37,179 nt of DNA from positions 1 to 37,179 of the forward strand of contig JAJDVH010000116.1 in the NCBI GenBank assembly GCA_022826185.1, written 5' to 3'. A program made the translations under genes and the position numbers. Under the pieces are notes generated by a model. The model saw nothing but the letters and a program-made list of their open reading frames with translations. It searched no databases and was not told where the DNA came from. Numbering within the stretch: position 1 is the stretch's first letter; the number at the start of each line of letters is the position of its first letter. This DNA comes from Alphaproteobacteria bacterium (lineage in GTDB: Bacteria; Pseudomonadota; Alphaproteobacteria; Bin95). Positions 1,495 through 23,219 of the stretch are shown piece after piece.

Positions 1495-1539
1495 CACTAC
1501 CCTCAGAATGCCGCATAATGCTGCATTCTGAGGGTAGTG
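1495..1539. promoter_or_regulatory. Near-perfect 45-bp palindrome, likely operator
   Basis: Arms CACTACCCTCAGAATGC (1495-1511) and GCATTCTGAGGGTAGTG (1523-1539) are exact reverse complements. The 11-base middle is itself symmetric (GCAT-A-ATGC) except for one mismatched pair (1512/1522). The element lies between the RelB-like remnant and the RHH gene, and the only ATG of the RHH gene (1518) falls inside it. The CATAAT at 1514-1519 could serve as a -10 box with TTACAC at 1492-1497 as -35 (16-base spacer). Autoregulation by the RHH protein is the natural inference. A hairpin acting on mRNA is an alternative. Confidence 0.7.
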
Positions 1540-1751
1540 GGGTAAGGCGAATTTCAGCCAAGAACCGCATCACGGTTAATCTCGAAGACGCAGAGTACCG
1601 CGCGCTTCAACAGGTAGCCGCCAAATCGGAACGGTCTCTCGCGTGGCTGGGACGTCGAGCTATCCGTGATCTGCTGCAACGCGAAGCTATCCAGATGACG
1701 CTGGATTTACCAGACCGAGACACGGTCGACCCGAGGCCTTCCTCGAAATGA
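1518..1751 (+). CDS. Ribbon-helix-helix (CopG/Arc-like) protein of the RM operon
   Basis: This is a 77-residue protein. After a short leader it has the ribbon strand RITVNLEDAEY (about residues 19-29) followed by helix A and the turn/helix B segment SLAWLGRRAIRDLL, the CopG-type RHH pattern. Such proteins bind DNA as dimers. The first gene of this operon is therefore a plausible controller of the two downstream RM genes. ATG 1518 is the only standard start in frame; the next alternative would be a non-ATG codon closer to the strand. Its TGA overlaps the methyltransferase ATG (ATGA at 1748-1751), so the two are translationally coupled. Codon use and GC content start to fall here relative to the flanks. 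Confidence 0.75.
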   Translation: MLHSEGSGVRRISAKNRITVNLEDAEYRALQQVAAKSERSLAWLGRRAIRDLLQREAIQMTLDLPDRDTVDPRPSSK

Positions 1752-2650
1752 AGTATGTGGGAGGGACCCTTTACCAAGGCGACTGCCTTGAAGTAATGAA
1801 ATCGCTCGACGATCACTCAGTCGATTTGGTGCTGTGTGATCTTCCCTACGGCACGACCCAAAACAAATGGGACAGCGTTATTCCCCTTGAGCAGCTCTGA
1901 CAACAGTATCGTCGGGTTGTTAAACCAAGAGGCGTAATTGCGTTATCTTCGCAAGGTATTTTCACTGCACGCGTTATACTTAGTAACGAGCCTTGGTTCC
2001 GATATAAGTTTGTTTGGATTAAGAGCAAGCCAACTAACTTTCTCAATGCACGCCGTCAACCCTTACGGCAACACGAAGACATATGTATATTTTATCAAAG
2101 TCAGCCCGATTATCGGCCTGTCATGTCGCATGGTGAGCCGTACGATAAGGGAGTCAGAAAAGCCCAATACACAGGAAGCTATGGAGACTTCAAGCCCGTA
2201 CAGGTAAAGAGCAGCGGTCAGCGTTTTCCGACAGATGCTCTATATTGCAAAACGGCCGAAAGCGAAGCCGGTGGTCGTGTTTGGCATCCAACACAAAAGC
2301 CAGTGGCCCTCGGACGCTACCTTATTCGCTTATTCACCGGCGAAGGCAATGTCGTTTTGGATAACGCCTTCGGCAGTGGTAGTTTTCTGGTAGCGGCCGC
2401 GCTTGAAGCGCGACGTTTCATTGGAATTGAAAAGAATGAAGAGGTTCATCTTTTCAAGGAGAAACGCATCGACTATATGGAGGTCGCGAGAATGAGGCTT
2501 GCTGAAGTCAAGACTGCGATTGAGCGAGAGGACGAACCTGCGCCCCTGTATTCCGATTTACAACCCCGTGCGAGGTCCGGCAAGATCAGCCCGAGAGGAA
2601 TGGTTGACGTAGATGCGATCATTCGCCAAGCCCTGAAGGAAGCCGTATGA
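1748..2650 (+). pseudogene. Beta-class DNA methyltransferase interrupted by in-frame TGA
   Basis: Read through one TGA, the frame gives a 300-residue N4-cytosine/N6-adenine methyltransferase of the pfam01555 kind. Catalytic motif IV is DLPYG at residues 31-35 and the SAM-binding motif I (DNAFGSGS) is at 205-212. This IV-before-I order defines the beta class. Codon 51 (1898-1900) is TGA, where homologous sequences usually carry Trp in a context like LWxQYxRxxKPxG; the reading resumes at once with QQYRRVVKPRG and stays open to the stop at 2648-2650. The first re-initiation ATG is at 2123 and would lose motif IV. Product and target are otherwise intact in appearance, so this is a recent nonsense mutation, a sequencing error or a rare read-through. 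The gene overlaps both neighbours by ATGA. Confidence 0.85.
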
Positions 2651-5367
2651 CCGCTCTTAGTACGACCTACAATGAACGGTCTTGGGCAATTGACCTTATT
2701 GGTCACCTGAAACATCTTGTCCAGCAGGGCGAACGTCCCATCAAGGATGCAGGGGGCGAGCGTACCATACGCACCGAAGGCGGCGCGTTGTTCCCGGACG
2801 TCCTGCTTTTCGGCGACAGGTCGACGGCGCGCATTCTGCAAGGCTGGGAACTCAAGATGCCCGATACGAGCATCCATGATATGGAGTTTCGACAAAATGC
2901 TGAAGCGAAGGCGAGGGCGCTGGGCTTGGACAGCTTTCTACTTTGGAATGTATCTGTCGTCCACCTGTATGTGCGGCCCCTCGAGAGCGAAGATTACGTT
3001 CTAGAAAACACTTGGTCGGACCTGACAGATATCCGAGATCGGGATAGTGTCGTTTCTAGTCGGGAACGCTGGGAGGACATGGCGAATGACATTATAGGTT
3101 ACCTCAACGATTTGTTCGACAGGGGGACTCTAGAGGGCCGACAATTCATTGACTCATATCGCAGTGGTGGCATCACGGCACTAATAATGGAAAATACGGG
3201 CTTAGTGGAACAGGCATTGAAGGATGCTGCGAGGCGTAATGGTTTACTTCGCGCGGAAATGACGCTTTGGTGGGATCGGTACCAAACCGAATACCTTGGG
3301 ACGCGCATGGAGCAGGTGCTTGCGCAAGCGGTGATCGTCAATTGGATCGCCAAAATCTTGTTTACGCATATTTTACGAGAAAATGACTCGAGGGCACGGC
3401 GAGTATCTGACATTCAAGATCAAACTACTCCCGAACAAGCGTTGCACTTATTTCAGCAGCTATCGCAAGATTGTAACTTTTGGACGATCTTTTCCGACAG
3501 TTTGGCCTTATCGACTCTCCCCGAACGACCTTGGCACCAGCTTAAGCAATTTAACCGTCTTTTGACGGACCTTAGGGTCGGGTCGGTCGATCAGCAGCAG
3601 CTTGGGGGAATTCTAGAAGCTACGGCCGAGGTGGCTCGTCGAAAACTTCGTGGTCAGTATCCGACCCCCATGCCTCTTGCCCGGATTCTCACCAATCTTT
3701 GCCTCAGAGATATTGTTTCTGACCGCGTTCTTGACCCGTGTTGCGGCAGTGGCACCATTGCACGAGCAGTTGTAGAACAAAAACTAGCCTCAGGTGTACC
3801 CCCGGCCGAAGCGGCGAAATCAGTTTTTGCTGGTGACCAGGACCCTCAAGCTGCGCTGATCGCTACTTTTGCGCTCGCAAATCCTAGCTTGACGAATGCT
3901 CCGCTGCGGATATTTCAACGGGATGCATTCTCCTTGTGCCCCACGACAGAACTGTCATTCCAAGACCCAACGGATGGTACGCCGTTTGTGGAGCGCCTGG
4001 GTTCGTTTCAAGCAATTGCCTGCAATCTTCCTTTCGTTGCACAGACGGGACGGGCGCAATATGGGAATGCAATCCGAGATATAACCGAGCAATTGGGGCG
4101 AGAAGGATATGAATTTTCGGGTCGGGCGGATGTCGCTGGGTATCTTCCTTTCGCCTTGCATCCCTTGCTCGTCGATCAAGGCAGACTTGGGATAATCATC
4201 ACCAATGCATGGCTTGGAACGGACTGGGGCGATATGTTCTATGATTCTCTCAGCCGATACTATGACCTGAAGACTGTTATTACGTCGGGCGCGGGCCGGT
4301 GGTTTCAAAGTAGTGAGGTAGTCACGAATATCTTGATTATGGAAAAGAAGGGGAATCCAGAAATTTCAAGCGGAGATGTCAAATTTGTCGTCTTGAAGCG
4401 GCCGCTCGCGGAGTTTGAGGAAGATGAGGATCAGCGAGTCGTGGCCGCTCAAATAGAACTGGGGCAAGCTCATTCGGAAACTATGAGCATTCGTACAGTC
4501 AGTCCTGCACGTCTGTCACGTTTTCGTCGATATGGTCTTGGCGGAACTGGCCAGTTTGTTGACTCAGATTGGGCATTGGAATTGCCGCTAGTTAGCTTGA
4601 GTGGGGTTTTTCGGATTCGCCGCGGAGAGAGAAGAGGAATGAACGCGTTGTTTTACCCGGCGGAAGGACACGGCATTGAAGCCGAATATATTCGACCTTT
4701 AGTAAAGAGCCCGATGGACTTTGCCCAATTGACCGGGGAAGCGACGAGGGAAGCTTTTTCCTGTTCTAGAACGCAGGAGGAAATGCGAGAGCTGGGGCAT
4801 CGCGGAGCATTGAGTTGGATAGAGAGATTTAGTACTCCTGACATCATTCGTAGGCTGTCGCGGGCCAATGGTCATTGGTATGAGATGAACGCTGACAGCC
4901 TGACGGAGTTAGTGATGTTTATTGGTTATGGAAGACGATTATTTGTAGGACGGGTTGATCCTCCCGCGTTTGTGGACCAACGCATGGTTCGATTGGCGCC
5001 TGTGGCAGATGTCAACATTGGGCTAGTCCATGCGTTGATGAACAGCAGTATCGGCATGTTTATGATAGAAGGTTTAGGGTTTGGTCGGGGGCTAGGAGCA
5101 TTGGACCTAAGTAAGGACCGGATAGAAGCATATATGCATATGATTGACACGAATGTGCTCGATGACGCCCAAAGGGCGGATATACTGGAAGGTTTCGCGC
5201 CATTGTTGGATCGGGAGATACTGGATGTCGCTGACGAACTGGAGCAGGCTGACCGACAAGAATTTGATGACCGGATAATTAGGTCTCTTGGATTACACGT
5301 AGAACGAGAAGAGATTTATGATTGCTTGAGAGGCCTTGTCGAGATCCGCTCTACGGCAAACGGCTGA
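2647..5367 (+). CDS. Fused restriction endonuclease / N6-adenine methyltransferase (Type IIG-like)
   Basis: The protein has 906 residues. The N-terminal part has a PD-(D/E)xK nuclease signature: PD at 50-51, then WELK with E68 and K70. A helical linker leads to the gamma-class methyltransferase: RGQYPTP (335-341), SAM-binding DPCCGSGT (363-370) and catalytic NLPF (460-463), where most N6-adenine enzymes have NPPY or NPPF. The C-terminal ~300 residues contain QRMVRLAP and a helix-rich segment like the target-recognition and half-S regions of Type I/IIG enzymes. One polypeptide would thus cut and modify DNA, with the upstream methyltransferase possibly protecting the other strand or another site, as in Eco57I-type pairs. 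It overlaps the preceding frame by ATGA and is clearly lower in GC than the flanking genes, which fits horizontal acquisition. The specificity cannot be deduced. Confidence 0.85.
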   Translation: MTALSTTYNERSWAIDLIGHLKHLVQQGERPIKDAGGERTIRTEGGALFPDVLLFGDRSTARILQGWELKMPDTSIHDMEFRQNAEAKARALGLDSFLLWNVSVVHLYVRPLESEDYVLENTWSDLTDIRDRDSVVSSRERWEDMANDIIGYLNDLFDRGTLEGRQFIDSYRSGGITALIMENTGLVEQALKDAARRNGLLRAEMTLWWDRYQTEYLGTRMEQVLAQAVIVNWIAKILFTHILRENDSRARRVSDIQDQTTPEQALHLFQQLSQDCNFWTIFSDSLALSTLPERPWHQLKQFNRLLTDLRVGSVDQQQLGGILEATAEVARRKLRGQYPTPMPLARILTNLCLRDIVSDRVLDPCCGSGTIARAVVEQKLASGVPPAEAAKSVFAGDQDPQAALIATFALANPSLTNAPLRIFQRDAFSLCPTTELSFQDPTDGTPFVERLGSFQAIACNLPFVAQTGRAQYGNAIRDITEQLGREGYEFSGRADVAGYLPFALHPLLVDQGRLGIIITNAWLGTDWGDMFYDSLSRYYDLKTVITSGAGRWFQSSEVVTNILIMEKKGNPEISSGDVKFVVLKRPLAEFEEDEDQRVVAAQIELGQAHSETMSIRTVSPARLSRFRRYGLGGTGQFVDSDWALELPLVSLSGVFRIRRGERRGMNALFYPAEGHGIEAEYIRPLVKSPMDFAQLTGEATREAFSCSRTQEEMRELGHRGALSWIERFSTPDIIRRLSRANGHWYEMNADSLTELVMFIGYGRRLFVGRVDPPAFVDQRMVRLAPVADVNIGLVHALMNSSIGMFMIEGLGFGRGLGALDLSKDRIEAYMHMIDTNVLDDAQRADILEGFAPLLDREILDVADELEQADRQEFDDRIIRSLGLHVEREEIYDCLRGLVEIRSTANG

Positions 5368-5465
5368 CGGGCATTTTGAGGTCGGGGGTTCCGTCCATCC
5401 TCCGGCACTAGGTGTCGCTAGGGGACGCTCTTGCCATTCCGCTTCACGATCTCCAAAGTCAGGGC

Positions 5466-5705
5466 ATGTTCGAATCGGCCGACGCGATTCCGATCCTGCT
5501 TGCCATCGTCGGCGTCGGCGGCGTTCTTGCCGGCATGGCGTGGCGCATGGCCGCCCGCCTCGACAGGCGCATAACCGAGGACAGGCGCGCCGCCGATGCG
5601 GACCGCCGGGCGTTCCAGCGCGCCATGGACGATTTCCGGGCCGAGATGCAGCGCCTGGCCGGGCGGCAGTCCCGCGTCGAAGGGCGGTTCGACGCCGCCG
5701 GATAG
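5466..5705 (+). CDS. Small single-TM, coiled-coil protein
   Basis: This is a 79-residue protein. MFESADAIP is followed by a hydrophobic helix (ILLAIVGVGGVLAGMAW, about residues 10-27) and a highly charged coiled-coil tail rich in Arg, Asp and Ala. The start at 5466 was preferred to the upstream in-frame ATG at 5412 because it places the TM helix near the N-terminus, as in its look-alikes. The layout (acidic N-tip, TM, charged helix) matches the proteins at 855-1187 and 25144-25344. It lies just downstream of the low-GC RM island, with GC back at the chromosomal level. Its function is unknown. Confidence 0.65.
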   Translation: MFESADAIPILLAIVGVGGVLAGMAWRMAARLDRRITEDRRAADADRRAFQRAMDDFRAEMQRLAGRQSRVEGRFDAAG

Positions 5706-18012: not shown

Positions 18013-19395
18013 ATGCGCTATCTGAGTACGCGTGGCGACGCGGCGGAGCGGGACTTCTCCGGCGTCCTGCTGACGGGCCTGGCGGAGGATGGCGGCCTCT
18101 GGCAGCCGGGCGAATGGCCGCGGCTGGACGAGGCGGCGCGCGCGCCGGGCGCAGGCTATGCCGAGCGCGCCTTCGCCGTCACCCGGCCCTTCATCGCCGG
18201 CGCGCTGGAGGAAGCGGACTGGCGGGCGCTGCTGGCCGAGGTCTATGCCGGCTTCCGCCACCCGGCGACGGCCCCGCTCGTGCAGCTCGACACGAATCTC
18301 TGGCTGATGGAGCTCTTCCACGGGCCGACCTTCGCCTTCAAGGACCTGGCGATGCAGGCGCTGGGCCGGCTGTTCGACCTCGTGCTGAAGGCGCGCGGCG
18401 AGCGCATCACCATCATTGGCGCGACCTCCGGCGACACCGGCGCGGCGGCGGTGGAGGCGGTCCGGGGGCTGGAGACCATCGACCTCGTCATGCTCTACCC
18501 GCACGGGCGCATCTCCGATGTGCAGCGCCGGCAGATGACCACGGTGGAGGAGCCCAATATCCACACGGTTGCGCTCGAAGGCACCTTCGACGACTGCCAG
18601 GACCTGGTGAAGGCGCTGTTCGCCGACACCCGGCTCCGCGAGGAATGGCGCTTCGCCGCCGTCAACTCGATCAACTGGGCCCGCGTCATGGTCCAGACGG
18701 TCTATTACGTCCATGCGGCGGCGCAATTGGGCGGCGGACCGGTCGCCTTCTCCGTGCCGAGCGGCAATTTCGGCAATGTCTATGCGGGCTATGCCGCGCG
18801 CGAAATGGGGCTCGATGCGCCGCGCTTCATCGTCGGCTCCAACAGCAACGACATCCTGGCGCGCTTCTTCGAGGCGGGCGACATGTCCACAAGGCCGGTG
18901 ACGCCCAGCTGGTCGCCCTCCATGGACATCCAGGTCTCCAGCAATTTCGAGCGCCTGCTGCATGACCTGCTGGGCCGCGACGGCCCGGCCGTCGCCCGGC
19001 ACATGGCGGCCTTCAGGCAAAGCGGGCGGCTGCCGCTCGACGAGGCGGGCTGGCAGGCGGCGCGAAAGCTGTTCCGGGGCCATGCGGTGGACGATGACGG
19101 CACGCTCGCCCGGATCGCCCGCACCCACGGCGAAACGGGCATGACCGTCGATCCGCACACCGCGGTCGGTATCGCCGCCGCAGACGCGCTCCGCGATCCT
19201 GACATGCCGACGGTTGCGCTGGCGACCGCCCATCCGGCCAAGTTTCCCGACGCCGTGGAGCGCGCCATCGGCCGCCGTCCGCCTTTGCCGGACGCGCTTG
19301 CCGCGCAGGCGGAACGCCCCGAACGGGCGGCGCGCATGGCGAACGACCTCGGCCTCCTCAAGAGCTTCATCCGCGAAAGGGTGCGCCGGCCATGA
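18013..19395 (+). CDS. thrC: Threonine synthase
   Basis: This is a 460-residue PLP enzyme of fold type II that converts O-phosphohomoserine to threonine. The N-terminal MRYLSTRG and GGLWQP and the lid domain are typical of the long (ThrC type 2) class. The PLP lysine is K110 in HGPTFAFKDLAMQ. The phosphate-binding ATSGDTGAAAVEA and the SGNFGNVYAGY block are present. The stop overlaps the start of the M16 peptidase by ATGA, an arrangement widely kept in alphaproteobacteria downstream of SURF1. No clear leader peptide or riboswitch is seen in the 76-base gap before it. Confidence 0.97.
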   Translation: MRYLSTRGDAAERDFSGVLLTGLAEDGGLWQPGEWPRLDEAARAPGAGYAERAFAVTRPFIAGALEEADWRALLAEVYAGFRHPATAPLVQLDTNLWLMELFHGPTFAFKDLAMQALGRLFDLVLKARGERITIIGATSGDTGAAAVEAVRGLETIDLVMLYPHGRISDVQRRQMTTVEEPNIHTVALEGTFDDCQDLVKALFADTRLREEWRFAAVNSINWARVMVQTVYYVHAAAQLGGGPVAFSVPSGNFGNVYAGYAAREMGLDAPRFIVGSNSNDILARFFEAGDMSTRPVTPSWSPSMDIQVSSNFERLLHDLLGRDGPAVARHMAAFRQSGRLPLDEAGWQAARKLFRGHAVDDDGTLARIARTHGETGMTVDPHTAVGIAAADALRDPDMPTVALATAHPAKFPDAVERAIGRRPPLPDALAAQAERPERAARMANDLGLLKSFIRERVRRP

Positions 19396-20606
19396 GCGTC
19401 ACCGTCTCCACCCTGCCGAACGGCCTCCGGGTCGCGACCGACACCATGAAGACCGTCGAGACCGTCTCGCTCGGCATGTGGGTCGGGGTCGGCACGCGCC
19501 ATGAGCGCGCGGCCGAGAACGGCGTCTCGCACCTGCTGGAGCACATGGCCTTCAAGGGCACGGAGCGGCGCACGGCCGCCGACATCGCCAGCGAGATCGA
19601 GGCGGTGGGCGGCTTCCTCAACGCCTATACCGCGCGCGAGGTGACGGCCTATTACGCCAAGGTGCTGAAGGAGGACGCCGCGCTTGCGGTCGATATCCTG
19701 GCCGACATCCTGACCGGCTCCGTCTTCGATCCGGAGGAGCTGGAGCGCGAGCGCACCGTCATCCTGCAGGAGATCGGACAGGCGCAGGACTTCCCGGAGG
19801 ACGTCGCGTTCGACCTGTTCCAGGAGACCGCCTTTCCGGACCAGGCGATGGGCCGCAGCATTCTCGGCCGCCCGGAGGTGGTGCGCTCGCTGCCGAGGGA
19901 GGCGGTGGCGGGCTGGATGGGCGAGCGCTACCGGGCGCCCGCCATGGTGCTGGCGGCGGCGGGGAATATCGGCCACGAGACGCTGCTCGGCCTGGCGGAG
20001 CGGCATTTCGCGGACCTGCCGACCGCGCCGGCTCCCGTGCCGGAGGCCGCCCGCTATGCCGGCGGGGAGGTCCGTGAGAGCCGCGACCTGGAGCAGACCC
20101 ACCTGTTGCTGGGATATGAAGGGCCGAGCTTCGGCGATATCGGCTTCTATCCGGCGCAGCTGTTCTCGACGCTCTATGGCGGCGGCATGTCCTCGCGGCT
20201 CTTCCAGGAGGTGCGGGAGAAGCGCGGGCTGGTCTATTCCATCTATTCCTTCGCCTCCTCGGCGGCGGACACCGGCCTGGTGGGCGTCTATGCCGGCACG
20301 GCGCGGGAGAATGCCGAAGAGGTGCTCGACATCGTGCGCGGCCAGCTGGACGACCTTGCCGACCACGGCCCGGATGAGGACGAACTCGGCCGCGCCCGCG
20401 CGCAGCTTCGCGCCAGCCTGCTGATGGCGCGGGAAAGCACCTCCTCGCGCTGCGAGCAACTCGCACAGCAATTGCTGGTCCACAACCGCCCGATCCCGCC
20501 AGAGGAGCTGACGGCGCGCGTCGAGGCGGTGAGCGCGGTGGAAGTCATGGGCATCGCCGCCCGCTACGTCCGCACCCCGCCGAGCCTCGTGGTGCTGGGG
20601 CCTTGA
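19392..20606 (+). CDS. M16-family zinc peptidase (processing peptidase-like)
   Basis: This 404-residue protein has the inverted zincin motif H47-L-L-E50-H51 in VSHLLEHMAFKGT, followed by the downstream ERTVILQEIGQAQD region that supplies the third ligand in this family. The second half contains LFSTLYGGGMSSRLFQEVREKRGLVYSIYSF, the glycine-rich and RE..Y-type region of the M16 C-terminal domain. The length matches bacterial relatives of the mitochondrial processing peptidase beta subunit (PepR/YmxG type). It is probably a cytoplasmic or periplasmic oligopeptidase; no signal peptide is evident. It is translationally coupled to thrC through an ATGA overlap, and a small symmetric element (CTGCCCGG-A-CCGGGCAG) follows at about 20679-20695. 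Confidence 0.95.
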   Translation: MSVTVSTLPNGLRVATDTMKTVETVSLGMWVGVGTRHERAAENGVSHLLEHMAFKGTERRTAADIASEIEAVGGFLNAYTAREVTAYYAKVLKEDAALAVDILADILTGSVFDPEELERERTVILQEIGQAQDFPEDVAFDLFQETAFPDQAMGRSILGRPEVVRSLPREAVAGWMGERYRAPAMVLAAAGNIGHETLLGLAERHFADLPTAPAPVPEAARYAGGEVRESRDLEQTHLLLGYEGPSFGDIGFYPAQLFSTLYGGGMSSRLFQEVREKRGLVYSIYSFASSAADTGLVGVYAGTARENAEEVLDIVRGQLDDLADHGPDEDELGRARAQLRASLLMARESTSSRCEQLAQQLLVHNRPIPPEELTARVEAVSAVEVMGIAARYVRTPPSLVVLGP

Positions 20607-20710
20607 GGGGCGGCGCAACGCACGCGCTGGAATACAGGTGTGTCGGTCCCCAGGTTACGATACCTTAGCTTGGTCTACTGCCCGGACCGGGCAGGACGGA
20701 GACAGGGCTC

Positions 20711-21289
20711 ATGACAAGCACAGGCTCTAGCCGCATCGTTGAGTCTGGCGTATTCGAGTGGCCGTGGACCGCGTCGCACGGGCTCTTGGTCATCGGCGGT
20801 GCATCTGGCGGCGGCGGCGGTGGTGGCGGCGCGCTCTGTCTCGAAGGCTTGAACCTTTACGGTGCAGGCGGCGGCGGCGGCGGCGGCGGCGGCGGGATGA
20901 CCCGAGTAGGACACAAGGGAGTTCACTACGATGCATCCGGCGGCAACGGTGGTGACGGCGGCGGCGGCGGCGGGCTTCGCGAGGGCACTCCGGTCCAGGG
21001 CGAATCTGGTAAGGGTGGCAGTTATGGCCACGGTGGCGGAGGCGGTGCCGGTGCAGAAGCGACCCCCTCCGAAGGTCGGGTAGTGGCAGGCGGTGGCGAT
21101 GGCGGTAGGGGCTTTCCGGGTGAGGTCAAGGTCATAGAGGTGTCCCACTTGTCGGTTGGTGATCGCTTTGAGATAGAGATCGGTATAGGTGGCCGCGGCG
21201 GGTACGCCGGTAGAGGTTACGAGAGGGGGACGGAGGGCGTCACGGGAGCAGGCGGGTTCGTGCTCCTGGTTCCGGTTTACGAGAGTTAG
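20711..21289 (+). CDS. Glycine-rich repeat protein, first gene of an unknown three-gene cassette
   Basis: The 192-residue protein opens with a short non-repetitive segment (VFEWPWTASHGLLVIGG). Three poly-glycine runs of about 8-10 residues follow, interleaved with loops such as ALCLEGLNLYGAG and MTRVGHKGVHYDASGGNGG. After the glycine-rich part comes a beta-rich stretch (VKVIEVSHLSVGDRFEIEIGIGG) and a hydrophobic end, GGFVLLVPVYES. This resembles the glycine-rich domains of phage tail-fibre tips and some surface proteins, which form polyglycine-II sandwiches. There is no signal peptide. A GGAG site lies about ten bases upstream of ATG. GC is lower than in neighbouring housekeeping genes. Fifteen bases separate it from the next gene. 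Confidence 0.75.
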   Translation: MTSTGSSRIVESGVFEWPWTASHGLLVIGGASGGGGGGGGALCLEGLNLYGAGGGGGGGGGGMTRVGHKGVHYDASGGNGGDGGGGGGLREGTPVQGESGKGGSYGHGGGGGAGAEATPSEGRVVAGGGDGGRGFPGEVKVIEVSHLSVGDRFEIEIGIGGRGGYAGRGYERGTEGVTGAGGFVLLVPVYES

Positions 21290-21303
21290 CTGGGAGACGG
21301 GCG

Positions 21304-21978
21304 ATGCTGAGCGAGTCGGCGGAGGCCGGTGCTGCGGGGGAGACGCAGATTCAGATGTCAGCGACAGTGTTAAGGGACTTCGGTGTGCAAGTGGCCCGTC
21401 GCCCGCGCAGCGCCAGCGGTCTTTTCTCGCAGCCGAGGGTTTGGGCACCTGTTGGATCTGCTGGGCTTTGTATCAATGTAGAGGGTTACAACAAACTTGA
21501 AGAGGCGTCGGGGGTGCTGACTCATGGTGCAACAGTAAATGCAGTGCAACAAGTCGCCAGCCCCATCGACCCAAGCATTCCAGCGGATCTCACCTCTGAC
21601 GACGCAGCGCGTGGGCAACGTCAGAAGCATGAAACCTATATGGCGCGCATAGAGTTTCTGCAGGCGGAGGCGCTGCACGAAGGCTATGCCCTGAACCCCG
21701 CCTCCCGAATCGACTTCGAGCGTTTTGCTCTAGGAGTGCCCGACGTTCGCGCAGGCAACCTCGTACTGCTGGAGAACGGTAACCTACGCGCGATTTGGAA
21801 GGATCGGCAGGGAACGCGGCTGGGCTTGCAGTTCCTCGGCGGCGGGATGGCCCAGTACGTGATATTCAAGCGACGAGAGAAGGAGCGGCCGATCTCCCGC
21901 GTTGCAGGGCGCGACTCCTTGGAGGGGCTGGAGCGGCTGCTGGCCGCGTTCGACATGCGATCGCTCCTCTACGAATGA
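21304..21978 (+). CDS. Conserved-looking protein of unknown function (cassette gene 2)
   Basis: The protein has 224 residues. I do not recognise a named domain. The N-terminal half is Ser/Ala-rich and polar. The C-terminal half looks like a compact alpha/beta domain: DVRAGNLVLLENGNLRAIWKD, then GTRLGLQFLGGGMAQYVIFKRR, and a final PISRVAGRDSLEGLERLLAAFDMRSLLYE helix. GNLVLLENGNLRAIWKD plus LGLQFLGGG reads as two beta-hairpins, as if binding a ligand or partner. I recall similar hypothetical proteins paired with a relative of the next gene, but cannot check this. Its TGA overlaps the next ATG (ATGA), so the two are almost certainly co-produced. Its base composition is less GC-rich than that of the flanking genes. 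Confidence 0.75.
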   Translation: MLSESAEAGAAGETQIQMSATVLRDFGVQVARRPRSASGLFSQPRVWAPVGSAGLCINVEGYNKLEEASGVLTHGATVNAVQQVASPIDPSIPADLTSDDAARGQRQKHETYMARIEFLQAEALHEGYALNPASRIDFERFALGVPDVRAGNLVLLENGNLRAIWKDRQGTRLGLQFLGGGMAQYVIFKRREKERPISRVAGRDSLEGLERLLAAFDMRSLLYE

Positions 21979-22421
21979 AAGGCGACCCGCTCCCGGGGGA
22001 AGACCGCATCGTTCGGTACTTATCGGCAACACTGCTGATAGATGGCGAATTCGCCGATGGCGTCGGCTTTTGCCTGCGGCATGGAGAGACGGGGCTGTCC
22101 GTAAACTGGTTGGATGTCCTGGCGTCGGGCGGAGCGGACCCACTGAGCGAGGTGCGGCGTCTGAGCCGTCTTCGACTACGGAGAAGCGGGCGCTTCGCGG
22201 AACTCGGGGTGGGCGACGTCTTGCGCACCGTGACCGAGGAACTGGACACGCTGCGGATCGTGCATGATCCGCTGGAGGAGGCGGAAGGGTTCGCCGCCGA
22301 TCCGTCGCATTCGCTAGTCGCCGGTCTGCCGCCGGCCGACAGCGACGAGGCGATGCTGGTGGGCGACATGATCGCCGAGTGCGTCACCGCCATGCATCCA
22401 GCGATTGTCGAGCAGGGCTAA
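21975..22421 (+). CDS. Conserved-looking protein of unknown function (cassette gene 3)
   Basis: This is a 148-residue protein. It reads as a small mixed fold: DRIVRYLSATLLIDGEFADGVGFCLRHGETGLSVNWLDVL, then an Arg-rich helix (EVRRLSRLRLRRSGRFAELGVGD), then VTEELDTLRIVHDPLEEAEGFAADPSHSLVAGLP, and a C-terminal helix MIAECVTAMHPAI with a conserved-looking Cys. The RHGETGLS string resembles phosphoglycerate mutase RHGET, but no second catalytic His motif follows, so I do not assign that fold. It is coupled to cassette gene 2 by an ATGA overlap, and its stop ends the cassette 60 bases before the SDR gene. Toxin/antitoxin-like or phage-related roles are possible but unsupported. Confidence 0.75.
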   Translation: MKGDPLPGEDRIVRYLSATLLIDGEFADGVGFCLRHGETGLSVNWLDVLASGGADPLSEVRRLSRLRLRRSGRFAELGVGDVLRTVTEELDTLRIVHDPLEEAEGFAADPSHSLVAGLPPADSDEAMLVGDMIAECVTAMHPAIVEQG

Positions 22422-22481
22422 CCGCGCTGCGAAGGTCGCGGCTAGCAATAGAGCATGCCCTCAAGCGAAGGAAGGATGGAC

Positions 22482-23219
22482 ATGGCAAAGACTGCAATCG
22501 TGACCGGCGGCAGCCGGGGGATCGGGGCTTCGGTCTGCCGGCTGCTGGGGGCGGAGGGCTGGAATGTGGTCGTGAACTATGCCGGCAGGGCGGATGCCGC
22601 CGAGGCGGTTGTGCGCGATGTCGAGGCCGCCGGCGGGCGGGCGCTCGCGGTGCAGGCGGATGTTTCCTCGAAGGCCGATGTGGACCGGCTGTTCGCGGCG
22701 GGGGACGAGGCGTTCGGGCGGCTGGATGCGCTGGTGAACAATGCGGGCGTGATCGGGCGCCGCGGCCGGTTCGAGAAACTCGACGGGCCGGTGATGGAAG
22801 AGGTGCTCGCCGTCAATGTGCTCGGCTGCATGCTGTGCGCCCTGGCCGCGATCCCGCGCCTTTCCACCCGCCACGGCGGGCAGGGCGGCTCGATCGTCAA
22901 CATTTCCTCGGGCAATGCGCTCTCCGGCGGTCCGGGCGAGTCCGTGCTCTACAGCGTGTCCAAGGGCGCGGTGAACTCGCTCACCATCGGCCTCTCGCAG
23001 GAGCTCGCCGGGGAGGGCATCCGGGTCAATACTGTCAGCCCCGGCCTCACCGACACCGACATGCCGGGCCCGGACAAGATCGCCGCCATCGGCCCGACAA
23101 TCCCGATGGGGCGCGTCGCGCATCCGGACGAGATCGCGGAGGGCGTGGTCTGGCTGCTCTCCGACAAGGCCTCCTATGTCGCCGGGGCCAATCTGCGCAT
23201 CGGCGGCGGGCGGCCCTGA
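22482..23219 (+). CDS. SDR family NAD(P)-dependent oxidoreductase (FabG-like)
   Basis: This 245-residue protein is a classical short-chain dehydrogenase: cofactor loop TGGSRGIG (residues 8-15), NNAG, the Ser in VNISSGNA, and Tyr/Lys in YSVSKGAVN. It ends with the usual GANLRIGGG. ATG 22482 was chosen because it gives the standard MAKTAIVTGG start and has a purine-rich GAAGGA site just upstream; in-frame ATGs at 22455 and 22476 would add a nonstandard tail. It starts the probable catabolic group that continues with the two deacetylase-like genes. The substrate is not known. Confidence 0.93.
   Translation: MAKTAIVTGGSRGIGASVCRLLGAEGWNVVVNYAGRADAAEAVVRDVEAAGGRALAVQADVSSKADVDRLFAAGDEAFGRLDALVNNAGVIGRRGRFEKLDGPVMEEVLAVNVLGCMLCALAAIPRLSTRHGGQGGSIVNISSGNALSGGPGESVLYSVSKGAVNSLTIGLSQELAGEGIRVNTVSPGLTDTDMPGPDKIAAIGPTIPMGRVAHPDEIAEGVVWLLSDKASYVAGANLRIGGGRP

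Follow-up and report, generated by a model that had tools for sequence, protein, structure and literature searches.

An acquired cassette with a constant gene pair and an exchangeable upstream gene, possibly a defence-type module, in an alphaproteobacterial genome

In the window (the whole stretch of 37,179 nucleotides analysed here) a small gene cassette is inserted at a chromosomal junction. We observe the insertion itself, the constant pairing of two of its genes, here called B and C, the change of the gene that precedes them, and the constraint acting on both B and C. A remote similarity to a candidate defence system was observed as well, together with the presence of relatives in R-M operons. 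As the best explanation, on which our judgement is evenly poised, we propose that the cassette is an acquired, partner-swapping defence-type module, in which the upstream gene is exchangeable and B-C forms the constant core. It is probably a variant of a candidate anti-phage system, with a putative function.

The cassette is a clean insertion between the M16 and SDR genes

The inserted segment of ~1.86 kb (about 20607-22464, no strand assigned) was delimited by comparing junction sequences. It extends from the stop codon of an M16-type peptidase gene (19392-20606, + strand) to the GCGAAGGAAG leader of an SDR gene (22482-23219, + strand), and both of these flanking genes lie outside the cassette. 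The M16 gene was detected in all eight genomes of the genus, and in six of them M16 and SDR are directly adjacent, with an empty-site junction that reads TGA followed directly by GCGAAGGAA, or a close variant of it. The site is empty in the genome carrying the closest M16 relative (G004, 98%). An insert at this junction was found in two of the eight genomes only, namely that of the window (G000) and that of a sister species (G003). The direct adjacency of M16 and SDR in 6/8 genomes shows that this is a clean insertion, and its two ends revealed no terminal repeats.

The GC3 value is 0.66 in the first gene of the cassette (G), 0.67 in B and 0.76 in C, compared to 0.88-0.91 in thrC, M16 and SDR. 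An earlier, sequence-only reading of this DNA had described a base composition different from that of the flanks and had proposed an acquired module; the empty sites and the foreign composition bear this out. The flanks of the cassette in the window are housekeeping genes (thrC, M16, SDR), with no defence island. Some 15 kb upstream, at 1501-5500, GC falls to 0.48-0.56 amid a region of 0.65-0.75, and two ORFs located there (2123-2650 and 2647-5367, the latter of 906 aa) appear by eye to be DNA methyltransferase/restriction-methylase-like. This segment is a possible second acquired defence locus.

Genes of the cassette

The three ORFs lie where they had been placed from the sequence: G at 20711-21289 (192 aa, 70 of them Gly), B at 21304-21978 (224 aa) and C at 21975-22421 (148 aa), all on the + strand. 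The start of C overlaps the stop of B in an ATGA (21975-21978), in agreement with the tight coupling that had been claimed for these two genes, and the motifs quoted for them are all present, LLENGNLRAIWKD and LGLQFLGGG in B, RHGETGLSVNW and MIAECVTAMHP in C. None of the three proteins matched Pfam, PHROGs, NCBIfam or PADLOC even at E up to 1, although for G low-complexity filters weaken the Pfam and PHROG tests; B and C thus belong to no characterised family of these collections, as had been supposed.

G is a glycine-rich ORF in the variable partner slot. It is separated from B by 14 bp, and GGAG-type ribosome sites precede both G and B. Its codon statistics are near-equal on both strands (-0.31 vs -0.26) and do not decide its coding status; based on the partner-slot position and the spacing of the ribosome site, G is probably a gene, though unproven. 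A search of 240 class genomes returned G itself and no other relative, and tblastn gave no match, for which the low-complexity filter is probably responsible.

B consists of a disordered, variable N-terminal part (residues 1-~95) and a conserved core (~97-224), and the DNA of the core (21642-21978, + strand) begins where similarity to the sister-species cassette starts in blastn. AF2 predicted the core with a pLDDT of about 90, as two helices, five strands and a helix, and residues 1-91 with a pLDDT mostly <50. The core is conserved across 25 proteins, whereas the N-terminal part is not. Outside close relatives the N-terminal parts showed chance-level similarity in pairwise tests, while the B core and C remained similar; even loci L011 and L013, which have a TIGR04255 partner in common (50%), do not share the N-terminal part of B. 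This segment may simply be fast-evolving. In structural searches (Foldseek vs PDB) B gave no match at E <= 0.001, and a PDB sequence search returned nothing useful. The top VIA rows for B, a Mediator subunit at Z 8.2 and TriTu at Z 8.1, fall within a range regarded as uninformative, and we claim no fold from them. Two further candidates were rejected: the matches of L005 and L006 to B residues 15-60 are due to chance, since larger ORFs overlap there on both strands, and L059 encodes a coiled-coil-like protein that is unrelated and lies among phage-like genes (by eye).

Conserved residues of C are R14, the SV(N)W block including W45, P99 and H112 (in DPSH). The AF2 model of C was unusable (mean pLDDT 38), and no fold or catalytic site was identified in either B or C. 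One member of the C family (alignment A13) matches the PADLOC AbiEii model at 1.4e-4.

A sister species carries a divergent cassette with a different first gene

At the same junction, the genome of the sister species (G003, loci L003/L010) carries a DUF3467 gene (PF11950, E 1.2e-6) with B and C behind it. The insertion junction is identical to that of the window, and the B core and C are 73% and 76% identical, respectively. However, the partner is DUF3467 instead of the glycine-rich gene, and the N-terminal part of B is unrelated to that in the window. In blastn, the DNA of the G003 contig (L010) shows 93% similarity as far as the end of M16; similarity is absent across the first gene and early B and returns where the B core starts (21642).

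Synonymous divergence (dS) between the two cassettes is 0.95 in the B core and 0.90 in C, five times the flank value (0.17 for both M16 and SDR), thus the two cassettes are more diverged than their hosts. The corresponding dN/dS values of 0.21 (B core) and 0.13 (C) indicate that both are under purifying selection. From the fivefold dS we conclude that the two cassettes were acquired or replaced separately; most simply, each was acquired on its own at one hotspot, or a divergent cassette took the place of another there. A single ancestral insertion with an exchanged front block was considered and rejected, since the fivefold dS in the B core and C speaks against common descent with the flanks.

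B and C remain paired while the upstream gene changes

Searches with B alone yielded 12 loci (L004, L010-L019, L033) and searches with C alone yielded five (L027-L031). C adjoins B in 11 of the 12 B-found loci, with L017 as the exception, and B is present in all five loci found with C. C is disrupted in L012 by an IS66-like insertion (3374-4429, by eye) and is split by stops in L015, so the cassettes decay in some genomes. The B-C family is rare, as the C profile detected it in 7/385 class genomes.

The position upstream of B-C is occupied by a TIGR04255 gene in L011-L014 and L027-L031 (seven were tested, with NCBIfam E values of 4e-8 to 2e-38; L012 and L014 assigned by sequence similarity), by DUF3467 in L010, by a 138-aa protein without a match in L004 and by the glycine-rich ORF in the window. 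L016 and L018 have no partner gene, and most of the N-terminal part is missing from their B as well. In pairwise tests, similarity between first genes of different type was at chance level. Of the three-gene cassette described by the sequence-only reading, genes 2 and 3 are therefore constant and co-occur in other genomes, but they do not form a fixed trio with the first gene, which varies.

Genomic context of the relatives

Several relatives are located in or beside R-M operons and other candidate defence genes. In L019, HsdR-, HsdM- and HsdS-like genes (HsdS by NCBIfam) are followed by B-C, and in L017 B lies within an R-M locus. A PtuA-like ATPase of the AAA type is found upstream in L011, and L068 has an AAA-type ATPase gene at a distance of 4 bp on the upstream side (by eye). 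Matches of the PDC-M32A type were obtained in ten of the 219 phylum genomes searched. In L060, L061 and L062 a PDC-M32A-C pair is flanked by an HsdM-like gene and an HsdS-like gene; the contig of L064 starts inside M32A, and an HsdS-like gene comes after the M32A-C pair (Hsd identities by eye). No recognised defence gene was found alongside B-C in L013, L014, L016, L018, L027 and L028. The defence association of the B-C relatives is a list of cases and not a statistic; that some relatives lie within or next to R-M operons and PADLOC candidates agrees with the defence role that had been named as one possibility.

Unusual arrangements were also seen. In L066 (1474-2790, - strand) the B core is fused in one frame behind TPR-like repeats (by eye), and L065, from the same genus, has a near-identical core without full repeats. 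In L069 (1408-3140) a nucleotidyltransferase gene and a HEPN-like gene (both by eye) come after a short B and C, a combination typical of toxin-antitoxin loci; a similar pair comes after B in L017.

Proposed role of the cassette and alternative explanations

As modelled, the B core would be a small domain of alpha-beta type, with a probable role in binding protein partners. The disordered, fast-changing N-terminal segment of B, or a domain fused at that place elsewhere, would link B to the variable partner, i.e., the glycine-rich protein here and TIGR04255, DUF3467 or the fused PDC-M32A domain in other loci. C may work with B as a regulator or an effector. The partner would then sense or execute, with B-C restraining it or relaying its signal, and the likeliest role would be to defend the cell against phages or other mobile DNA. 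The physical complex, the roles of sensor and executor, the phage target and the defence function are all what we infer for this module. If the defence role is true, the cassette would be a plug-in immune module.

More broadly, we put forward tentatively, and with some doubt, that B-C may be the constant part of a widespread but so far unrecognised class of immune modules whose sensor or effector can be swapped freely. The exchanged parts would comprise TIGR04255, DUF3467, glycine-rich and ATPase genes as well as fused PDC-M32A and TPR-like domains, a composition which we propose just as tentatively. Under such a reading, the window would capture a difference of this kind between two sister species at a single chromosomal hotspot. 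The B-C framework unites scattered uncharacterised genes, namely the TIGR04255 loci, some DUF3467 genes, PDC-M32 and the cassette of the window.

The tight coupling of B and C and their sporadic spread would also be expected of a toxin-antitoxin-type or addiction pair, in which one protein would be toxic and the other would neutralise it; the pair would travel beside many unrelated genes, with the upstream gene as a passenger and not a partner. Such a pair could account for the lack of a partner gene beside B-C in L016 and L018, for the position of B-C next to the MNT/HEPN-like pair in L069 and for the AbiEii match (1.4e-4) of one C relative, and the B core resembles the immunity protein TriTu among its weak matches (Z 8.1, 78 aligned). 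However, structural Z values near 8 are also reached by unrelated models, and no known toxin domain was found. Moreover, many unrelated loci have one specific family, TIGR04255, as their recurrent upstream gene, and in PDC-M32A the partner is fused to B; this recurrence and this fusion favour a functional partner over a passenger. We thus consider an addiction pair rather unlikely.

A mobile module with a cellular role unrelated to phages, e.g., in stress response, regulation or modification of surface components, would fit the biosynthetic and peptidase genes that flank the cassette in the window and the location of relatives L016, L018, L027 and L028 among ordinary genes. This explanation seems unlikely to us in view of the patchy presence within the genus (2/8 genomes), the repeated embedding in R-M loci and the lack of a conserved metabolic neighbour. 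The poly-glycine blocks and the closing GDRFEIEIGIGGRGG stretch of G recall glycine-rich adhesin domains. They are what favours the idea, present in the sequence-only reading, of a phage-fibre tip in G, and also a reading of the cassette as a prophage remnant with a tail-fibre tip gene, but this is highly improbable, since none of the three proteins matches Pfam or PHROG, searches of 2.9 million viral contigs and of phages and plasmids gave no relative of B or C, and the insert is clean, 1.86 kb long and has no phage genes nearby.

Comparison with TIGR04255 loci and PDC-M32

Among the closest counterparts of the partner-swapping module proposed here are the TIGR04255 loci, in which a partner likewise precedes a B-type and a C-type gene, with short overlaps between the genes. 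Four of them (L011-L014) contain close relatives of the window B core and C (53-60% identity). They differ in the partner, as the slot in the window holds the glycine-rich ORF, and no TIGR04255 gene was found in the window genome (G000). A total of 15 TIGR04255 genes were detected in 12 of 142 class genomes, two of them with profile-level B-C behind, and in seven more loci (L046, L048, L049, L050, L052, L055, L056) the TIGR04255 gene is followed by two small genes that resemble remote versions of B and C. Comparison of the window-group with the TIGR04255-linked profiles by hhalign supports this resemblance; it gave 92% for C and 91% for B, compared to 0.1-0.3% for crossed B/C controls.

PADLOC lists PDC-M32 as a 'phage defence candidate'; one reported example comes from a Sinorhizobium prophage (PMC12429752). 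Candidates of the PADLOC type stem from 'guilt by embedding', and most are without experimental tests (PMC12988326, PMC12255303); for PDC-M32, we found no experimental validation in the literature. The PDC-M32A model was matched by 5/25 B relatives, in the last third of PDC-M32A (best 1.2e-8), and the B relatives concerned belong to TIGR04255 loci; the PDC-M32B model was matched by 2/22 C relatives (0.001). The window B and C matched neither PADLOC model, and direct comparison of the window-group with the PDC-M32-group profiles was weak (hhalign, C 51%, B 9%). Thus, the link runs via the TIGR04255-linked group, and we refrain from assigning the window pair to PDC-M32.

The window cassette differs from PDC-M32 in having a glycine-rich gene as a separate unit. 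PDC-M32A carries a fused N-terminal domain of ~250 aa, which is missing from the window B, and the PDC-M32 examples seen in this analysis lie inside type I R-M operons, while the window cassette is not in an immune operon. On the other hand, the gene order of PDC-M32 (M32A, then M32B) is B-type then C-type, as in the window. The B-type core at the C-terminus of PDC-M32A has a 'GGIQAEW' block, whose equivalent in the window is NGNLRAIW, and PDC-M32B shows the R...F...LSV...P...H pattern of C.
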